Source of the DNA: an uncultured Sphingobium sp.
Lineage (GTDB): Bacteria > Pseudomonadota > Alphaproteobacteria > Sphingomonadales > Sphingomonadaceae
DNA: 8,690 nt
NCBI GenBank assembly: GCA_946479185.1
Contig: CAMLFF010000123.1
Span: 1-8,690, forward strand
Reading direction: 5' to 3'
Positions 1,162 through 8,690 of this stretch are shown in pieces (position 1 is the first letter of the stretch; each line of letters opens with the position of its first letter). The position numbers and the translations under genes were made by a program. The notes under the pieces are model-generated. The model did no database searches. It saw nothing but the letters and a program-made list of their open reading frames with translations, and had not been told where the DNA came from.

Positions 1162-2001
1162 ATGACAGACAGCCTCTTCATTTTCAACGAACGCAGCGGA
1201 AGCTACAACCCGGCTTTAGTCGCTGAAATAGAACAGCTATTCGCGCAGGGCGACTGGCCGTTGGCCCGCGTGTGCGACATTGGCGAAGGCGCCTTGCCGG
1301 ATGCGGCGGAGGCGAAGGCACAAAATCTCGGGCTTATCGTTGTGTTGAGTGGCGATGGCACGCTTGCTGCCGTCGCAGAATCACTGGCCGGCTGGGAAGG
1401 CACATTGCTGATCCTCCCCGGCGGAACAATGAACCTGCTCTCACGCACGCTGCATGGCGATCGCACGGCGCAAGACATTGTGCGCGCCTATCTGGATGGG
1501 CAGGGCAGCATCTTGCGGCCTCCGGTGATTCTCGCAGGCGAGATTACGGCCTATACCGGCATGATCGTGGGGCCGACGGCGGCCTGGGGCAATGTGCGCG
1601 AGGCTTTGCGCAATTTTGATCTGACGGCGCTGGCGGACAAGGTGCCTGCCGCCCTCTCTGCCACCTTCGATTCGCCGGGCGTGACCCTTGAGGGCGAGGA
1701 GCAGGATTATCCTGCCATCTTCGTCGAGCCCTCGCTGGCGGGTTTGCGCGCTTATGGTGTGCTGGCCACGGGCGCAGGCGATCTGTTCAAGCATGGCTGG
1801 GCATGGCTTGCAGGCGATTTCAGGGATGGCCCCTCCGAACCGCTCGGCACTGCGGCGCATTTTAAAATGTGCTCGGACGGCGATACGCTCGATCTGCTCG
1901 TTGATGGCGAGAAGGCGGATACGAAGAGCCCGCTTGAGATGAAGCTTGGCCGGGCTGGCGTGCATTTCTTCGCGGCGCAGGGCGAGAAGGGCTGGCGCTG
2001 A
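1162..2001 (+). CDS. Diacylglycerol kinase-like lipid kinase
   Basis: The 279-aa protein belongs to the DAGK catalytic-domain superfamily (diacylglycerol, sphingosine and YegS-type kinases), which transfers the ATP gamma-phosphate to a lipid hydroxyl. Visible motifs are an N-terminal FNERSGS (8-14, equivalent to the usual NPxSG), the nucleotide-binding SGDGTL (63-68), the [14 protein letters not shown] stretch (86-99), and the late acidic segment [12 protein letters not shown] (239-250). No signal peptide or membrane segment is seen, which fits a cytoplasmic or peripheral protein. The ATG at 1162 has AAGG 4 nt upstream, a rather short spacing. It is divergent from sdhB and 111 bp upstream of the dipeptidase. 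The lipid acceptor cannot be read from sequence; in a sphingomonad it could be diacylglycerol, acylglycerol or a sphingoid base. Confidence 0.85.
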
Positions 2002-2112
2002 GGAGCGCTGCATTATCGCTTCGGTAGGACGGGTTGCCTATACGAGATTTGCCGCATGCGTCGGCGCCGATTCATGCTTTCCAGATCGTGCTTAAAGCGA
2101 TCTAAAAGCGGC

Positions 2113-3399
2113 ATGCACAAATGTCTCTTGCCGCTGGTCGGCCTCCTGCTCGCTTCGGCCTCCCCCGCTTTTGCCGCTCCGGCTGATCCCGGCGATCCCG
2201 GTCTTCCTCGGCTGACAAAGATCCTCAAGGCTACGCCGCTGATCGACGGGCATAATGACTGGCCCGGCACGCTGGTGGGTGAGGCGGGGGACAAGCGCTG
2301 GACGCTGGACCTCAACCGGCTCGATCCGGTGGCTTATGATACGGACATCGAGCGGCTGCGGCAGGGGATGGTCGGTGGGCAGTTCTGGTCGGTCTTCGTT
2401 TCGCCCATGCTGCCGCCTGTGGAGCAGGTTCGCAAGACGCTGGACCAGATCGATCTCGTGAAATCCATTGCGCAGCGCTACCCCAATGACTTCGCGCTGG
2501 CGCGCACGGCAGTCGATGTGCGTGCGGCGCATAAAAAGGGCCGCATTGCCTCACTGATCGGCGCGGAGGGCGGCGGCCAGATTGATGAGAGCTTCTCGGT
2601 GCTGCGCTCTTACGCTGCGCTTGGCGTGGGCTACCTCACGCTCACCCATAGCCGCACCATTGCCTGGGCCGATAGCGCGACCGACGACCCCAAGCATAAG
2701 GGACTGACCCCCTTTGGCGTCGCGGTGGTGAAGGAGATGAACCGGCTCAACATGCTGGTGGACCTGAGCCATGTGAATGAAGACACGATGATGGACGCCA
2801 TCGCCGCGAGCCGTGCGCCCGTCATCTTCTCTCACTCAAGCGCGCGGGCCTTGTGCGATCATCCCCGCAACGTGTCGGACGCGGTGCTGAAGGAAGTGGC
2901 GCGCACGGGCGGCGTCGTGATGGTCGCTTTTGCGCCCAATTATATCTCGGAAGCGCGGCGCGTGTGGGGCGTACAGCAGGGTGCGCAAAAGTCCCTCTTC
3001 AACCAGCCGCCGCTTAATGGGCTGTATATCGGCCAACCCGACCGCGCGAAGGCGGCGATGGACGAATGGCTCAAGGCCAATCCCGAGCCGCGCGTGACGG
3101 TGCAGATGGTCGCGGATCATGTGAATCACATCGCCAAGGTCGCGGGCTATGATCATGTGGGGCTGGGCGGCGACTATGATGGGTTGCCTGCCTTGCCCGA
3201 TGGCATGGACGGGGTGGAAAGCTATCCGCCGTTGCTGCTGGAGCTGATGAAGCGCGGCTGGAGCGATGCCAACATCGCCAAGCTTGCCGGTGGGAACATC
3301 CTGCGCGTGATGGCGCAGTCCGAGAAGGTTGCCGCCGGTCTCGCAAATGAACCTCCCGCCACGGCGACGCGTGCGGCGCTGGATGGAGCCGGGGGCTGA
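2113..3399 (+). CDS. Secreted membrane-dipeptidase family (M19) metallopeptidase
   Basis: The 428-aa protein is of the renal-dipeptidase family (peptidase M19), amidohydrolase-fold zinc enzymes that cleave dipeptides, often with a D-residue at the C-terminal side. Starting at 2113, the N-terminus is a clean Sec signal peptide (MHK, then LLPLVGLLLASASPAFA, cleavage near residue 21-22), so it should act in the periplasm; there is no lipobox. Zinc and catalytic residues are visible in family order: H47 and D49 (DGHNDW), E152 (GAEGGG), H220 (DLSHVNE), H241 (FSHSSARALCDHPRN) and D354 (GLGGDYDG). R252 is the likely carboxylate-binding Arg. The frame is open to an ATG at 2056, which would give a 447-aa form with a long Arg-rich n-region; neither start has a strong Shine-Dalgarno. 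Natural substrate is unknown, with peptidoglycan-derived or scavenged dipeptides likely. Confidence 0.9.
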   Translation: MHKCLLPLVGLLLASASPAFAAPADPGDPGLPRLTKILKATPLIDGHNDWPGTLVGEAGDKRWTLDLNRLDPVAYDTDIERLRQGMVGGQFWSVFVSPMLPPVEQVRKTLDQIDLVKSIAQRYPNDFALARTAVDVRAAHKKGRIASLIGAEGGGQIDESFSVLRSYAALGVGYLTLTHSRTIAWADSATDDPKHKGLTPFGVAVVKEMNRLNMLVDLSHVNEDTMMDAIAASRAPVIFSHSSARALCDHPRNVSDAVLKEVARTGGVVMVAFAPNYISEARRVWGVQQGAQKSLFNQPPLNGLYIGQPDRAKAAMDEWLKANPEPRVTVQMVADHVNHIAKVAGYDHVGLGGDYDGLPALPDGMDGVESYPPLLLELMKRGWSDANIAKLAGGNILRVMAQSEKVAAGLANEPPATATRAALDGAGG

Positions 3400-3400
3400 G

Positions 3401-3424
3401 ACACGCCCGTCCGCCAGAGCGTGT
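3401..3424 (+). terminator. Weak hairpin after the dipeptidase gene
   Basis: A perfect 6-bp inverted repeat (ACACGC ... GCGTGT) with a 12-nt loop begins 2 nt after the stop codon. It is followed by TACAATT rather than a run of T, so it is at best a weak intrinsic terminator or a 3'-end stabilising stem. Confidence 0.3.
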
Positions 3425-3582
3425 TACAATTGCATAGGATAATAATTGCATGTCATTTTGGCCCAAATGCAGTTGGGCGGATCACAGCCGTTAATGAATA
3501 AGCCTCATTCGATCACTGTCATTTTGGGTGCAATAACAGCGGCTTTACCCTTGTTGTCGGCCTGACAGCCCCCTCCCTCGCG
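3425..3582. other. AT-rich non-coding leader with short repeats and dyads
   Basis: No credible gene is seen here. The stretch is clearly richer in A and T than its surroundings. AATTGCAT occurs at 3428-3435 and 3444-3451. An 11-bp direct repeat, TGTCATTTTGG, occurs at 3451-3461 and 3517-3527. The first copy overlaps a near-palindrome at 3454-3469 (14 of 16 positions symmetric), flanked by TGCAT and ATGCA. The second lies in a dyad, TGTCATT-N8-AATAACA (3517-3538). These lie 45-155 bp upstream of the predicted -35 of the TPS operon, a reasonable place for regulator binding sites. No known regulator is recognised. Confidence 0.45.
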
Positions 3583-3611
3583 TTGACAATATTAACCATG
3601 CTGGGTAACTC
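3583..3611 (+). promoter_or_regulatory. Candidate promoter of the tpsB-tpsA operon
   Basis: A perfect -35 hexamer TTGACA (3583-3588) is followed after 17 bp by TAACTC (3606-3611), a poor but usable -10. The implied start near 3617-3619 falls at the first base of the GAGATC hairpin that precedes the riboswitch aptamer. The agreement between promoter spacing and RNA structure makes this the best candidate, though the -10 match is weak. Confidence 0.5.
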
Positions 3612-3617
3612 CAGCCA

Positions 3618-3634
3618 GAGATCGCTTTGATCTC
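3618..3634 (+). promoter_or_regulatory. Possible anti-P1 hairpin of the riboswitch expression platform
   Basis: GAGATC (3618-3623) and GATCTC (3629-3634) form a perfect 6-bp stem with a 5-nt loop. Its 3' arm uses four of the five bases of the 5' arm of P1 (3631-3635), so the two stems exclude each other. Forming it would release the 3' arm of P1 and hence the tpsB ribosome binding site. The role is inferred from base pairing only. Confidence 0.5.
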
Positions 3635-3710
3635 GAAAAAGGCAAACCGTCGGTAACGACGGGACGCAAAGCCTCCGGTCCTGGTCAGCAGGATAGCGGG
3701 GTCGCCGAGG
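3631..3710 (+). ncRNA. Cyclic-di-GMP-I riboswitch (GEMM-I) aptamer
   Basis: The conserved core of class I c-di-GMP aptamers is present in order: an A-run followed by GGCAAACC (3641-3648); a hairpin CCGTCG-GTAA-CGACGG with a GNRA tetraloop (3647-3662); GGGACGCAAAGCC (3661-3673), whose GCC pairs with the first GGC; and a second hairpin, TCCTG with CAGGA (3679-3693). This is followed by TAGCGGGG (3694-3701), which forms the tetraloop-receptor side. The outer stem P1 is TCTCG (3631-3635) with CGAGG (3706-3710). The element ends 8 nt before the tpsB ATG, on the same strand. Such aptamers bind the second messenger c-di-GMP and commonly control motility, adhesion and surface genes, which fits the TPS operon behind it. 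The family call is very secure from sequence and architecture. Confidence 0.95.
3707..3710 (+). promoter_or_regulatory. tpsB ribosome binding site inside riboswitch stem P1
   Basis: GAGG, 8 nt before the ATG at 3719, is the only good Shine-Dalgarno candidate. It is also the 3' arm of P1 of the c-di-GMP aptamer, so its exposure should depend on whether P1 is formed. Confidence 0.65.
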
Positions 3711-3718
3711 GATTAAAG

Positions 3719-5473
3719 ATGACGAAGCCTTGCGTTTTCGGTCTCACTGCTGCCGTGCGTCGCACGCCGCCGTTGAGCCGCTATTCTCGACCAACATTCA
3801 AAAGCCTTCATGTCTATTTGAGCGCCGTTGCGCTGGGCGGTCTGCTCACTGCTGGCAACGCCTCTGCGCAGGTTCAGCAAAGTGTCGATCCCGGCCGGGT
3901 GGGTGAGCGGCTGCGTGAGCGCAGTGATTTGCCGAGCGTTTCTCCGCTCGACCTGCCCGAGCAGCCTGCCCAATCCGCTGCGCCGCAGAGCGATCTGCCG
4001 GTCACGCTCAGCGCCATTCGGTTCGAGGGCGCGACGGTGGTGCCGTCCGATGTGCTGGATGCGCTGGCCGCACCCTATCTCAATCGCGAAATGCCGGTCT
4101 CCGAGCTGTTCAGGCTGGCTCAGGCGGTCACCGTCGAATATCGCCGTCGGGGCTATGTTCTCTCCCGCGCGATTGTCGCGCCGCAGCGGATCGAGGGCGG
4201 CGTCGCCACGATCAACATTGTTGAAGGCTATATCGGCGAGGCCCGTGTCGAGGGGGATGCTGGCGGCTATCGTCCCTATCTGAACGCCTATCTCGCACCG
4301 CTGCGCACGGCCCGACCAACCTCGGGCGATGATCTCTCCCGCGCCTTGTTGCTCGCACGCGATCTGCAGGGTGCCGATGTGCAGGCGGTGCTGACCCCAT
4401 CGGCTACGCTGGCAGGCGCTGCTGATCTCGATCTGGTGGTCAAGCGCAAGCCCATCGAGGCCTTTGCAGCTATCGACAATCGCGGCACCCGCTGGCTTGG
4501 TCCCGTGCAAATCTATGGCGGCGTCGTGCTCAATGATCTGCTCGAAACGGGCGGACGCCTTGCCATCACGGCGGTCGGCGCGCCCGATCAGGGTGGCGAG
4601 TTGGGCTTCATTTCCGGCGCTTATGATCAGCCCATTGGCGGATCAGGCCTGCGTGCCAGCGCCTTCGCCAATTACGCGCGCACCCGCCCCGGTGACGAAT
4701 TGCGTCCGCTCGATCTTAAGGGCGAGAGTGTCAGCTGGGGGGTGGGCGTCAAATATCCCTTCCTGCGCAGCCGCTCGACCAACATTCTTGGGCAGCTCAA
4801 TTTCGTCTCGCGCGATAGCGAATCACGCAGCCTGCTCCTCAATCCGATCTTTGACGACAAAATCCGTCTGGTGACCGCTGAGCTGCTCGCCAATCATGGC
4901 GATGCGACGGGCGGACAGACCACGGTCCGGGCCAGCATCTCACAAGGCGTGGACTTTTTCGGCACGACCAGATTGGGTGATCGGGCCAAGTCGCGTGGCA
5001 CGGCGTCGGGCTTCTTCACACGCATCAATGGCGAGATCAGCCGCGTTCAGCCGCTGTATCGCGGCTTGCATCTGCTGGTTGCCGGAACCGCGCAATGGAC
5101 GCAGGATAGCCTGCTCGCCTCGGAAGAACTTGGCATTGGCGGCAATGATTTTGGCCGGGCCTATGACCCTTCGGAGATCACCGGCGACAAGGGCTATGCG
5201 GGCAAGGCCGAGCTTTTCTACACCATCCCCGCGCGCGGCATGGGTTCGGTTGAACCCTATGCCTATTTCGAGGGCGGGCGCGTCTATCAGAACCATCCAT
5301 TGCCGGGCGAGGCCAGGCGTAACGGGCTGCAATCGGCTGGCGCGGGGCTCCGCGTGAGCGTTGCCCGTCGGTTCGGCTTCTCGATGGAATATGCCAAGCC
5401 GATCCGCCGTCCGGTGACGTCCCTTGGCGACCGCGATGGCCGCATCTTCCTCTCGTTCAGCGCTGCCTACTGA
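3719..5473 (+). CDS. Two-partner secretion transporter TpsB (FhaC/ShlB/HecB type)
   Basis: The 584-aa outer-membrane Omp85-superfamily protein should export the neighbouring TpsA. The start at 3719 is supported by GAGG at suitable spacing. The N-terminus is a long signal peptide of about 50 residues with a basic n-region and cleavage near ASA/QVQQ. A linker (51-95), probably the helix and pre-POTRA part, is followed by POTRA repeats. The first is about 96-171 (VTLSAIRFEGA to YRRRGYVLSRAIVAPQRIEG to INIVEG), the second about 172-244. The 16-strand beta-barrel occupies about 245-584. The loop-6 motif typical of the family is seen as GGNDFGRAYDPSEITGD (474-490). The chain ends in an aromatic residue (FSAAY), as BAM-inserted barrels do. 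Length matches FhaC relatives. It is the first gene of the operon, with tpsA 52 bp downstream and a c-di-GMP riboswitch immediately upstream. Confidence 0.93.
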   Translation: MTKPCVFGLTAAVRRTPPLSRYSRPTFKSLHVYLSAVALGGLLTAGNASAQVQQSVDPGRVGERLRERSDLPSVSPLDLPEQPAQSAAPQSDLPVTLSAIRFEGATVVPSDVLDALAAPYLNREMPVSELFRLAQAVTVEYRRRGYVLSRAIVAPQRIEGGVATINIVEGYIGEARVEGDAGGYRPYLNAYLAPLRTARPTSGDDLSRALLLARDLQGADVQAVLTPSATLAGAADLDLVVKRKPIEAFAAIDNRGTRWLGPVQIYGGVVLNDLLETGGRLAITAVGAPDQGGELGFISGAYDQPIGGSGLRASAFANYARTRPGDELRPLDLKGESVSWGVGVKYPFLRSRSTNILGQLNFVSRDSESRSLLLNPIFDDKIRLVTAELLANHGDATGGQTTVRASISQGVDFFGTTRLGDRAKSRGTASGFFTRINGEISRVQPLYRGLHLLVAGTAQWTQDSLLASEELGIGGNDFGRAYDPSEITGDKGYAGKAELFYTIPARGMGSVEPYAYFEGGRVYQNHPLPGEARRNGLQSAGAGLRVSVARRFGFSMEYAKPIRRPVTSLGDRDGRIFLSFSAAY

Positions 5474-5479
5474 CCATTC

Positions 5480-5504
5480 GGGGGCGTGAATGATCGCGGC
5501 CCCC
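5480..5504 (+). other. Inverted repeat between tpsB and tpsA
   Basis: GGGGGC (5480-5485) and GCCCCC (5499-5504) can form a 6-bp all-GC stem with a 13-nt loop in the 52-bp gap. There is no T-run after it, so it is not a standard terminator. It could stabilise an RNA end or partly reduce readthrough from tpsB into tpsA, but this is speculative. Confidence 0.35.
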
Positions 5505-5514
5505 AAGCGAATTT

Positions 5515-5518
5515 TGGA
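5515..5518 (+). promoter_or_regulatory. tpsA ribosome binding site
   Basis: GGAG lies 7 nt before the ATG at 5526. It is a strong site and fixes the start of the exoprotein, and it means tpsA can be translated independently of tpsB. Confidence 0.75.
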
Positions 5519-5525
5519 GACCGAT

Positions 5526-8500
5526 ATGAGCAAGCATAATGTCGCGCGCATGGTGGCTCATTCGAGCCGCAGCGCAATTTCTTCACGTCGGCGCGGCGCG
5601 CTGCTCATGTCGGCGGCGTCCTTCGCGCTGGCGATAAGCTGGCCGACGTCCGCATTTGCGCAGGCGGAAACCGCCTTGCCGAGCGGCGGCACGGTCGTTG
5701 GCGGCACGGCGACGATTGGCACGCCCTCCAATGCGCAGTTGCAGATCAACCAGTCGAGCGATCGCGCGATCATCACTTGGGACAGCTTCGATATCGGCTC
5801 CAGCGCGGGGGTGACATTCTCCCAGCCGAGCGCAAGCGCGATTGCGCTTAATCGCGTTGTTGGCGGCAGTGCGCCGTCGCAAATTGCCGGGCAGCTCAAT
5901 TCAAACGGCATCATCGCGGTCATCAACAGCAATGGCGTGATGTTTGCCGGGACAGCGAACGTGAATGTCGGCGGGCTCATCGCAAGCGCGGCGGATGTCG
6001 GGGACGACGCCTTTATGGCAGGCGGCGCACTCAGCTTCACCGGCTCGCCATCGTCGATGAGCGAAATCGTCGTGAGTGCAGGCGCAAGCATTAGCATTGC
6101 CGATCAGGGGCTTGGACTCTTTTTCGCGCCGGTCGTCCGCAATGCTGGCGTGATCAACGCGCGGCTTGGGCAAGTGACGCTGGCATCGGGCACCAGCGCG
6201 ACGCTCGATCTGGATGGCACGGGTTTCCTTGAAATCGGCCTTGGCAATGAGAGTGCGCTGGTCAGCAACAGCGGCACGATCAATGCTGGCGGCGGGCGCA
6301 TCCATATGACCGCCAAGGCGGCCAGCGCGGTGATCGATCAGGTCGTCAACACGGGCATATTGTCCGTGGCGAGCGCGACGTCCGATCCCGATGGTACGAT
6401 CATCCTCTCGGCGCAGAGCGGCAATGCGGTGCTGGGCGGATCACTGGACGTTGGCGCGGTCGGCTCGGCGAGCGTTCTTGCTGCCAATGAGGTGAAGGTT
6501 GAGTCCGCTGTCGCCGCGACCGGTAATCTTTCGCTTACCGGTCGGCATATCAGCGGCGCTGGCGACATCAATGTGACCGATGGCGCGCTGGCGCTCACGC
6601 TGGACGTAGCTGGCGCCGATACGAGTGGCGAGGGTAATTTCATCGGTGACGCGCTTGGCGTGATCGGCACGGTTTCTGGCGGCGTCCGGCTTGATCTCGG
6701 CGCGGGCACCTATGCCGCAGGCGCGACAATCTTCCACAATGATCTCACCATTGATGGCGGCGGGGTCGCCACGATTTTCGTGCCGATCAACGGTAGCCAG
6801 ATCAATGGCCTGAATGTCAACGCGGACGGCGCGACGATCACGGGCCTCACATTCGCCAGCGCATTGCCGCAAGGTGTGAAAGCCTGGGAACATAACTGGG
6901 GCAGTTCTTTCGCGCGCGGCATCGCGATCGCCAATGGCGCGGACGGCGCGACGATCAGCGACAACAACATGTCCGGCTTGCGTCAGGCCATCCTCGTCGA
7001 TGGGCGCGGCACCAACACTCTGTCGATCACCGGCAATCTCATCGACAATACGAAAAGCGCCATCTTGCTTCAATATGTCGACGGGTCCGCGCCCGGCTTT
7101 GACATCAGCGGCAATATGCAGGGCGCATACGGAAATGAATGGGGCATCAACCTCCATTTGAACGGCGTGTGGGATGGCACGAACTTGACGTCTGGCACTG
7201 GGGTGCTGGGCGCAAACACGTCGCTCGAAAATCAGGCGCGGCTGCTTGCGTTGAGCGCGGCCAATGGCGGCATGGCGGTGCTCGATCAGGGCTATACCGC
7301 CTCAAATCGCACCCATGTGAGCGTGTCCGCCACGGGATCATCGAGTGGACAGGGCGCAGCTAACACGCCGCTCGATACGGTTCAGGCCGGCATCAATGCT
7401 GTCGTCACTGGCGGCAAGGTGATGGTCGGCGCGGGCAGCTATGCCGAAGCGGTGACCATCGCCAAGGGCCTGACGCTCACTGGCGCCGGGATGGACGAAA
7501 CGGCGATCACGGGTGGCATCGCGCTGTCGGGCACGTTCAGCGATCTGATCCTCAAGGATTTTGCGGTCAGCGGATCGTCTGGAACGGCGGTCATTCAGGG
7601 CGGCCAAGTGACGAACCTCACGCTGGATGGCATCCGGATCGACGGCGGCAGCGTCTCCGGGCGTCATGGCATGGCGAGCGGAAAATATGGCGGCGCCCTG
7701 TCCATCACCAACTCCGAATTTCTCAACATTCGCGGCTGGGCGGCCTTTGATACGCGCAGCGGGGCGGGCACTGCTACGGATGGCACGCAGATCACCAGCG
7801 CTGTCTTCTCCAACAATCTTCTCGATAACACCGCGGGCCACATCGCCTTCCGCCAGCAGGCAGGCGAGTTCACTTACCCTGATATCACCGTCGCCAATAA
7901 TATCGTGCGCAATGGCGGGGATTCAGACACGTCGTTCGGCGCGATCTTCAAGGCCTTCCGCGCCAACAAGGTCGACTTTACCGGCAATGTGGTGAGCGAT
8001 GTTGGCCTCAGCACCTCCGCACCCAGCGGCGAGGCGGTATATGGCGCTGTGCTGATGACGCGCACTGTCGGCACGCTGAATGTCACCGGCAACAGCTTTA
8101 CAAACAATCATCAGGTGTTCGCCATCGAGCCCGGCTATGCGCTGCCGACCGTCACCAATTTTACGGACAATAGCTTCGTCAATAATGGCTATGCCATCTA
8201 TCTACCCGCCAATGTCTCCGGCGCTGGCACGATCAATTTCTCCGGCACCAATAATTTCGTGGCAGGCGATGATACGGTTCAGCACATCGTCTGGCGCAGT
8301 GCTGGCGCGCTCGATCTGACAGGCGTGTCGTTCAACGGCACCCGAGCCGATGCGCTCGATCTGGCGGGGCTGTTCGCAGCGGAAGACCTGATCACCCACG
8401 CGATCGATGTGAGCGGGGCAGGCCTCGCCCGTCTGGTGAATGGGCAATTGTTCGTCACGAGCGCCTCCGGCACGGGGAGCGCAGCGCGTGGCGTGGCGCT

Positions 8501-8690
8501 GGCAACGGCTGGAGAGCGGGTCAACCTCTCGGCTGGCACTCATGTGTTGAGCAATACGCTGAACCTGAACAACAGCGTCACGCTGGCAGGGCAGGGTCAG
8601 GGCGTGACGATCCTGGATGCGAGTGGGCATAATGCTTACGGCATCCGCGTCAAAGCCAGTGATGTGACGCTGAGCGGCTTCACGTTGAAC
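5526..8690 (+). CDS. Two-partner secretion exoprotein TpsA with beta-helix passenger, 3' end missing
   Basis: The frame is open for 1055 codons and runs off the right edge. An extended signal peptide (basic n-region with SRRRG, cleavage near residue 45, AFA/QAE) is followed by a haemagglutination-activity/TPS domain, about 50-170. That domain has WDSFDIGSSAGVTFSQPS, IALNRVVGG and INSNGVMFAG, the last standing where many relatives have NPNG, then VGGLIASA. This domain is recognised by TpsB POTRA repeats and nucleates folding. The rest is Gly/Ala/Thr/Asn-rich beta-helix with few aromatic residues and no cysteine. From about 385 it resembles NosD/pectate-lyase-like PbH1 helices, with rungs such as ITGNLIDNT, VTGNSFTNN and FTDNSFVNN. 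Three entry modules (about 384, 617 and 985) share a GxYxxxxTIxxxLTLxGxG-like pattern. It may be an adhesin, matrix protein or polysaccharide-active protein; this cannot be decided without the C-terminus. Confidence 0.92.
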   Translation, partial: MSKHNVARMVAHSSRSAISSRRRGALLMSAASFALAISWPTSAFAQAETALPSGGTVVGGTATIGTPSNAQLQINQSSDRAIITWDSFDIGSSAGVTFSQPSASAIALNRVVGGSAPSQIAGQLNSNGIIAVINSNGVMFAGTANVNVGGLIASAADVGDDAFMAGGALSFTGSPSSMSEIVVSAGASISIADQGLGLFFAPVVRNAGVINARLGQVTLASGTSATLDLDGTGFLEIGLGNESALVSNSGTINAGGGRIHMTAKAASAVIDQVVNTGILSVASATSDPDGTIILSAQSGNAVLGGSLDVGAVGSASVLAANEVKVESAVAATGNLSLTGRHISGAGDINVTDGALALTLDVAGADTSGEGNFIGDALGVIGTVSGGVRLDLGAGTYAAGATIFHNDLTIDGGGVATIFVPINGSQINGLNVNADGATITGLTFASALPQGVKAWEHNWGSSFARGIAIANGADGATISDNNMSGLRQAILVDGRGTNTLSITGNLIDNTKSAILLQYVDGSAPGFDISGNMQGAYGNEWGINLHLNGVWDGTNLTSGTGVLGANTSLENQARLLALSAANGGMAVLDQGYTASNRTHVSVSATGSSSGQGAANTPLDTVQAGINAVVTGGKVMVGAGSYAEAVTIAKGLTLTGAGMDETAITGGIALSGTFSDLILKDFAVSGSSGTAVIQGGQVTNLTLDGIRIDGGSVSGRHGMASGKYGGALSITNSEFLNIRGWAAFDTRSGAGTATDGTQITSAVFSNNLLDNTAGHIAFRQQAGEFTYPDITVANNIVRNGGDSDTSFGAIFKAFRANKVDFTGNVVSDVGLSTSAPSGEAVYGAVLMTRTVGTLNVTGNSFTNNHQVFAIEPGYALPTVTNFTDNSFVNNGYAIYLPANVSGAGTINFSGTNNFVAGDDTVQHIVWRSAGALDLTGVSFNGTRADALDLAGLFAAEDLITHAIDVSGAGLARLVNGQLFVTSASGTGSAARGVALATAGERVNLSAGTHVLSNTLNLNNSVTLAGQGQGVTILDASGHNAYGIRVKASDVTLSGFTLN
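6675..6860 (+). repeat. Beta-helix entry module 1 in TpsA
   Basis: Residues about 384-445. The pattern is GVRLDLGAGTYAAGATI, then LTIDGGG, then INGLNV and ITGLTF. It is related at protein level to the segments at 7374 and 8478 and looks like the start of a right-handed parallel beta-helix. Confidence 0.55.
6822..6957 (+). repeat. 19-bp exact direct repeat inside tpsA
   Basis: The same 19 bases occur at 6822-6840 and 6939-6957, in the same frame and 39 codons apart, each encoding ADGATI. They mark two related rungs of the beta-helix and suggest duplication of a short coding unit. Confidence 0.7.
7374..7565 (+). repeat. Beta-helix entry module 2 in TpsA
   Basis: Residues about 617-680: DTVQAGINAVVTGGKVMVGA, then GSYAEAVTIAKGLTLTGAG. 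This is the clearest of the three. It matches the common entry of pectin-lyase-fold proteins (an alpha-helical cap, then V-x-V-x-x-G-x-Y, then L-T-L-x-G-A-G). Confidence 0.6.
8478..8690 (+). repeat. Beta-helix entry module 3 in TpsA, cut by the window end
   Basis: Residues about 985-1055: ARGVALATAGERVNLSAGTH, then LNLNNSVTLAGQGQGVTI, then VTLSGFTLN. It follows the same order as the modules at 6675 and 7374, implying that another beta-helix unit continues past the edge. Confidence 0.55.

Follow-up and report, generated by a model that had tools for sequence, protein, structure and literature searches.

The 8,690-nucleotide (nt) stretch of DNA analyzed here, hereafter the window, comes from an uncultured Sphingobium sp. 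(contig CAMLFF010000123.1) and carries, on its forward strand, a predicted riboswitch for cyclic diguanylate (c-di-GMP) directly in front of two genes, tpsB and tpsA, which are predicted from their domains to form a two-partner secretion (TPS, type Vb) operon. A cmscan search of the whole window, reported up to E = 1, gave a single Rfam match, RF03167 (c-di-GMP-I-GGC), at 3632-3710 (+); two further overlapping matches of the same clan, which were not named, were dropped by the program. The match was full-length (model positions 1-80 of 80) and scored 68.5 bits against a gathering cut-off of 59 (E = 5.9e-15), which is the outcome of the covariance check that a first-pass annotation of this DNA had proposed. 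The three nearest elements, in genomes G001, G464 and G425, scored 75.9, 75.8 and 74.9 bits, respectively, with the RF01051 model (c-di-GMP-I/GEMM-I; cut-off 35) and, judging by them, the window element, for which no RF01051 score was printed, very likely exceeds that cut-off too. Since RF03167 is the best match in the window and the nearest elements pass RF01051, the element is assigned by sequence to the class I c-di-GMP riboswitches (GEMM-I), as first annotated, and its better, more specific Rfam label is the GGC subtype. The near-complete aptamer core described in that annotation was also recovered: the quoted motifs GGCAAACC (3641-3648), GGGACGCAAAGCC (starting at 3661) and TAGCGGGG (3694-3701) and the GNRA-capped hairpin all lie within 3641-3701, and the hallmarks of GEMM-I, a GNRA (GUAA) loop on P2 and an AGCGGGG side in P3, are both present.

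The domain content of the two genes, a protein with POTRA and ShlB barrel domains beside a large exoprotein with a TPS domain, agrees with the operon proposed in the first-pass annotation, and the operon probably exports a giant surface protein, TpsA being predicted to leave the cell through TpsB and likely to act as an adhesin. The genes are separated by a 16-nt gap and the tpsA frame is open at the window end; over the aligned stretches, it is 61-64% identical to the tpsA products of G001 (2227 amino acids, aa) and G464 (2306 aa).

The aptamer ends at 3710 and the ATG of tpsB stands at 3719, leaving 8 nt (3711-3718) between them, the same distance as annotated before. Read from this ATG, TpsB (584 aa) is about 24 residues longer at its N-terminus than with the usual TpsB start. 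Protein alignment revealed the same extension in P0001 (97% identical) and P0002 (86-87%), and a later start in the other ten homologues aligned (from P0003-P0014); because P0001 and P0002 share the extension, ATG 3719 is a credible tpsB start in the window lineage. In the two relatives with a close tpsB (65-69% identity), L087 of G001 and L117 of G464, the ATG at +8 is kept and opens a frame of 116 and 115 aa, respectively, that is not conserved as a protein, while tpsB itself starts 448 and 434 nt downstream of the element. The 8-nt fusion of riboswitch and tpsB is therefore not universal and seems to be particular to the branch of the window. The 116/115-aa frame was considered as a conserved leader peptide and rejected on account of its poor protein alignment and out-of-frame indels. 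Some 20-38 nt past the +8 ATG, both loci also hold a 7-bp hairpin in which, as seen by eye, one stem pair differs on both sides (A-U versus G-C).

Table 1. Features of the leader and of the tpsBA operon, by position in the window
Feature	Position	Strand	Basis or remark
TTGACA, tentative -35-like hexamer, 49 nt upstream of the aptamer	3583..3588	+	similar hexamers in relatives
TTAACCAT box between TTGACA and riboswitch	3592..3599	+	same or similar box in L087, L117 and L114
Upstream hairpin GAGAUC-GCUUU-GAUCUC (proposed anti-P1); 3' arm is the P1 5' strand	3618..3634	+	-7.6 kcal/mol
Extended P1, 5' strand, CUUUGAUCUC	3625..3634	+	10-bp duplex with 3709-3718, -10.6 kcal/mol
c-di-GMP-I-GGC (GEMM-I) riboswitch aptamer	3632..3710	+	RF03167 covariance match
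P2 hairpin, GUAA (GNRA) tetraloop at 3653-3656	3647..3662	+	sequence, cmscan structure line
P3 stem-loop, TAGCGGGG on the 3' side	3671..3702	+	cmscan alignment, aptamer fold
GAGGGA, Shine-Dalgarno-like, in the 3' strand of P1	3707..3712	+	sequence
Extended P1, 3' strand, GGGAUUAAAG; last base adjoins AUG	3709..3718	+	duplex with 3625-3634; folding
tpsB, ShlB/FhaC/HecB-type outer-membrane transporter, 584 aa	3719..5473	+	POTRA_2 (PF08479) 3.5e-19, ShlB (PF03865) 1.9e-20
tpsA, large exoprotein, TPS/FHA N-terminal domain, 1067 aa in window	5490..8690	+	PF05860 9e-23, TIGR01901 1.1e-18

Expression platform and proposed switch

Analysis of the leader revealed that the Shine-Dalgarno site is part of an aptamer-dependent helix, being located in the 3' strand of P1; this is the sequence arrangement of a translational riboswitch. 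The upstream hairpin and the extended P1 are mutually exclusive, because both use the same 5' strand of P1. The full 10-bp P1 can be formed in the window, and the relatives form a shorter, 7-pair version with a 2-nt bulge. Both helices are formable in the four close elements compared (window, L087, L117 and L114), with all six hairpin pairs present in 24 of 24 cells and the seven P1 pairs in 28 of 28, three 3' columns of P1 varying without loss of a standard pair; slid versions of P1 reached at most 64%. The hairpin of the window was equalled by 0.8% of 500 shuffles. In folding predictions for a window transcript ending at the AUG, the Shine-Dalgarno site was unpaired at 0.91 with the hairpin forced versus 0.33 with P1 forced, and the corresponding values with the hairpin forced were 0.53, 0.63 and 0.52 in L087, L117 and L114, respectively, again versus 0.33 with P1 forced.

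Built on the aptamer, its position, the operon, the overlap of the Shine-Dalgarno site with P1 and the two helices formable in four close elements, the reading we favour, with moderate confidence, is that tpsBA carries, in its 5' leader, a GGC-subtype class I riboswitch working as a translational OFF switch, with the upstream hairpin competing with P1. The ligand is expected to stabilize P1 and P1 buries the Shine-Dalgarno site, so that an OFF switch is the simple reading; the first-pass annotation had named no direction of control. At low c-di-GMP, the upstream hairpin, near the presumed start of the transcript, would hold the 5' strand of P1, leaving the Shine-Dalgarno sequence GAGGGA free, and tpsB would be translated, with export of TpsA through TpsB to follow. 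Binding of c-di-GMP to the aptamer core would allow P1 to form and to invade the hairpin, and in this ligand-bound state P1 would extend up to the AUG and bury the Shine-Dalgarno site.

Several results weigh against such an OFF switch. The changes in both helices are one-sided and the shuffle control gave 500 of 500 for both, which cannot separate them from chance; the alignments therefore point to conserved pairing and not to compensation. Forcing P1 accounts by itself for part of the Shine-Dalgarno contrast. In window transcripts that continue for at least 16 nt beyond the A of the AUG, the site was unpaired at 0.40, 0.27 and 0.23 with the hairpin versus 0.33 with P1, and this loss of contrast in longer transcripts implies that the switch would have to be kinetic, acting during transcription or initiation. 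The window transcript ending at the AUG favours P1 by about 2.5 kcal/mol even without ligand. In L087, L117 and L114 the balance lies with the hairpin, by 5.7-10.5 kcal/mol across the transcript lengths folded, which would be much for ligand binding to overcome. Repressing a probable adhesin would also run contrary to the usual sense of c-di-GMP, which in general promotes adhesion.

The platform was also analyzed in a wider set of 42 distinct elements falling into 33 clusters by flank similarity, which comprised 45 loci and the window minus two weak matches (L102 and L103; 26.7 bits, probable chance) and two duplicates (L118 and L120, of L083 and L085). The GGC, CGCA, GNRA and GCGGGG-side core motifs, searched as loose patterns, were found in all 42 aptamers. 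Shine-Dalgarno-like purines occurred at -5 to +8 of the aptamer end in 31/33 clusters versus 1-4/33 at five control offsets, an enrichment to be expected in part, as purines also close the aptamer consensus. In 18/33 clusters there was an ATG at +5 to +18 (shuffled mean 4.8, maximum 14 in 2000 rounds; 2-9/33 at control offsets), and P1 flanks paired better with their own partners than with swapped ones (-7.72 versus -6.91 kcal/mol), a modest difference matched by 190 of 10000 permutations. From these three results, translational control through P1 looks common for the RF03167 riboswitch in these bacteria. At many loci, the frame opened after P1 is short and the large gene begins tens to hundreds of nt further on. 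An upstream hairpin of at least 5 bp was found at 3/3 elements near tpsB (the window included), 7/12 of the lipoprotein type, 1/2 linked to DUF4402 and 3/25 others, the groups having been set after the loci were seen and one of the 15 tpsB-type loci meeting the contig end before any tpsB. With so few of the other loci carrying it, the hairpin was rejected as a general part of the riboswitch family and is assigned to the tpsB-type subset and L114.

Further upstream, the TTGACA hexamer has counterparts in TTGACT at -49 in L087, TTGACA at -49 in L114 and TTGACG at -52 in L117. A promoter scan did not return TTGACA at 3583-3588, and the sole site listed was a weak one at 3562-3590 (mean 0.4 in shuffles). 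The box that follows recurs as TTAACCAT at -40 in L087, TTAACTAT at -39 in L117 and TTAAC at -37 in L114, and in the window it resembles a CtrA half-site, for which it is a candidate. The upstream neighbours in the window (1162-3399 and 203-1129) are a diacylglycerol-kinase-like lipid kinase, an M19 dipeptidase and, on the opposite strand, sdhB, with no evident link to tpsBA.

Alternative explanations and known systems

The repeat that forms the upstream hairpin could instead work as DNA, GAGATC-N5-GATCTC being an operator for a transcription factor while the riboswitch acts through P1 alone. This is somewhat unlikely, is compatible with an OFF switch, and its probability overlaps those of the other readings. 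A repeat of 17 bp, symmetric and close to a possible promoter, would also fit an operator, and the GGATC-N5-GATCC repeat of the lipoprotein-tpsB group is symmetric too. However, the arm GAGGTC of L114 breaks the symmetry of the DNA and keeps a G-U pair in the RNA, and repeats of at least 5 bp that end in the 5' strand of P1 are concentrated in the tpsB-type loci (10/15, versus 1/2 of the DUF4402 type and 3/25 of the others). It is rather unlikely that the same riboswitch is an ON switch, in which the ligand would promote tpsB translation, the Shine-Dalgarno site being buried by the coding start in the absence of ligand and P1 being weak in the cell. Such a switch would restore the usual polarity of the signal, and the unconstrained folds of longer transcripts do bury the site in a hairpin with the coding region. 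Vc1 of Vibrio cholerae, moreover, precedes gbpA, which is needed for adherence (PMC3971182). Against it, the ligand-state P1 itself covers the Shine-Dalgarno site, in the relatives as well; a coding-region segment complementary to that site, considered as a fourth switching strand, is present in 4/4 close elements and was rejected, being no better than shuffles in any of them (p 0.16-0.53).

Less probable again is a riboswitch whose main effect is on the elongation or the stability of the transcript, as by Rho-dependent termination behind an untranslated leader, the start codon after P1 being secondary. The poorly conserved 116/115-aa frames of L087 and L117, with tpsB 434-448 nt away, and the many other loci whose large frame starts far downstream would fit this explanation, and Vc2 reportedly controls RNA stability, by the title of one study. 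In the window, however, tpsB reads directly from this AUG, an in-frame fusion kept in P0001 and P0002, and no terminator-like site was found on the + strand at 3390-3800. That the element is a look-alike responding to another cyclic dinucleotide, such as 3',3'-cyclic GMP-AMP (cGAMP), is very improbable. All 42 aptamers of the wider set, the window's included, retain the first G of GGC, presumably position 20 in the Vc2 numbering. That position is named as a factor in ligand selectivity (PMC9262584). In favour of a look-alike, 12 of 17 GEMM-I elements of Geobacter sulfurreducens were shown to bind cGAMP (PMC8835794).

Compared with known systems, the window element shares sequence, secondary structure and core motifs with the RF03167 and RF01051 families, and differs in its target, a two-partner secretion operon, and in a P1 5' strand that its close relatives likewise share with an upstream hairpin. 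Vc2 of V. cholerae, of the same aptamer class, is described as a translational OFF switch in which the stability of P1 is key to switching (PMC9262584); in the window element, P1 itself contains the Shine-Dalgarno site and the strand that competes is upstream. That c-di-GMP-I riboswitches are tied to surface genes is already known, as the first-pass annotation had stated for adhesion and surface genes elsewhere, and Vc1 is likewise a class I element before the gene of an attachment protein, with a protein and a lineage different from those of the window (PMC3971182). The CdrAB system of Pseudomonas aeruginosa is a two-partner adhesin under c-di-GMP, as proposed for the window operon; there, control is described at the protein level, through LapD/LapG, and not in the RNA (PMC6584795). 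The earlier remark that this linkage was not well described in the lineage agreed with the literature searched: the passages searched contained no link between a c-di-GMP riboswitch and two-partner secretion, although the original description of the GGC subtype may already list some gene associations, and the search gave nothing on such a riboswitch with an adhesin in sphingomonads. Where the c-di-GMP-I-GGC subtype is named, those passages are confined to lists and methods. Judging by titles and the beginnings of abstracts, searches combining c-di-GMP riboswitch with autotransporter returned only unrelated work, and those combining c-di-GMP, riboswitch and Sphingobium returned only work on gum biosynthesis.

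Distribution and significance of the riboswitch in relatives

The distribution of the riboswitch was analyzed in 397 genomes of the family of G001 and in 94 genomes of its genus, which is apparently Sphingobium; two contigs in this genus match plasmids of Sphingobium sp. TKS and S. herbicidovorans. In the family sample, 16 of 397 genomes gave a match, 10 of them above the cut-off and two of the 16 probably by chance, while 22 of the 94 genus genomes carried 29 copies. A TpsB match lay downstream on the same strand in 12 of these 29 copies (446-1668 nt from the lower coordinate of the riboswitch). Two of the 12 were of the window type; in the remaining ten, a glycine-rich frame of 366-417 aa (19-26% glycine) stood between the riboswitch and a distant TpsB (28-31% identity), with a lipobox-like LSACES in 8/10 and, in the one example examined, no Pfam or NCBIfam match. 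Two extra loci of this type were a plasmid copy with TpsB downstream (L086) and one that meets a contig end (L089). At L151, L152 and L154 (G418, G402 and G478) and similar loci, where the riboswitch is followed by the glycine-rich, lipoprotein-like gene and the distant TpsB, this gene may be the partner of TpsB.

Other targets among those examined were autotransporter-type proteins (L157 and L159) and DUF4402 proteins (L150 and L160) in the genus; elsewhere in the family they were an autotransporter (L163), an adhesin of the YadA type (L165) and a protein with a CAP domain (L162). At L150 and L160, the DUF4402 protein is followed by other frames, a protein of about 900 aa and another secreted-looking protein (with DUF4402 in L160), and the locus looks like a surface-fibre operon. 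A chaperone-usher pilus was rejected for it: the 898- and 902-aa neighbours had no family match above cut-off and no usher model matched. The search for the same leader before tpsB homologues, also proposed in the first-pass annotation, showed recurrence and no general rule: of the best eight tpsB relatives in the genome collection (L004-L011, 56-66% identity) only L004, which is that of G001, has the riboswitch, and the other seven (L005-L011) have none at the gathering threshold. Four relatives checked encode 12-16 GGDEF domains each.

Seven copies of RF03167 in the genus, in 7 of the 94 genomes, precede an undescribed terminator-like element about 200 nt downstream. The loci compared for it are L085 (which is L003 8074-8400), L084, L105, L121, L122 and L125, with a variant in L104 and L119. 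The element is near-invariant, about 100 nt long, and starts 193-215 nt after the riboswitch with a small hairpin, followed by a terminator-like stem of 15 bp, whose loop is C-rich (UCUCCCC), and, in some loci, by a T-rich stretch behind it. In the first six loci, a frame of constant length (24 aa) lies between riboswitch and element; its codon changes are mostly non-synonymous (161 versus 66), and the peptide may therefore not matter. When one locus was scanned against Rfam, the other match was only at chance level, and the element could be a small regulatory RNA gated by c-di-GMP.

A broader proposal, which we hold tentatively and at less than even odds, is that c-di-GMP directly represses translation of TPS surface proteins by way of an expression platform upstream of the aptamer, a 5'-terminal anti-P1 hairpin that would form first and have to give way to P1 stabilized by the ligand, within a regulon that would include several surface-protein routes and the terminator-like RNA and would run opposite to the usual adhesion-promoting polarity. 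Specialists might be surprised by two points, both of which we infer: that c-di-GMP is predicted to repress a two-partner exoprotein, and that an anti-P1 hairpin upstream of the aptamer is used. The finding would tie type Vb secretion to c-di-GMP sensed directly by an RNA, with repression predicted in place of the activation one would expect; the recurrence of the riboswitch in the genus, before tpsB in 12 of 29 copies and before autotransporters and other surface proteins in others, would constitute a testable surface-protein regulon of sphingomonads.

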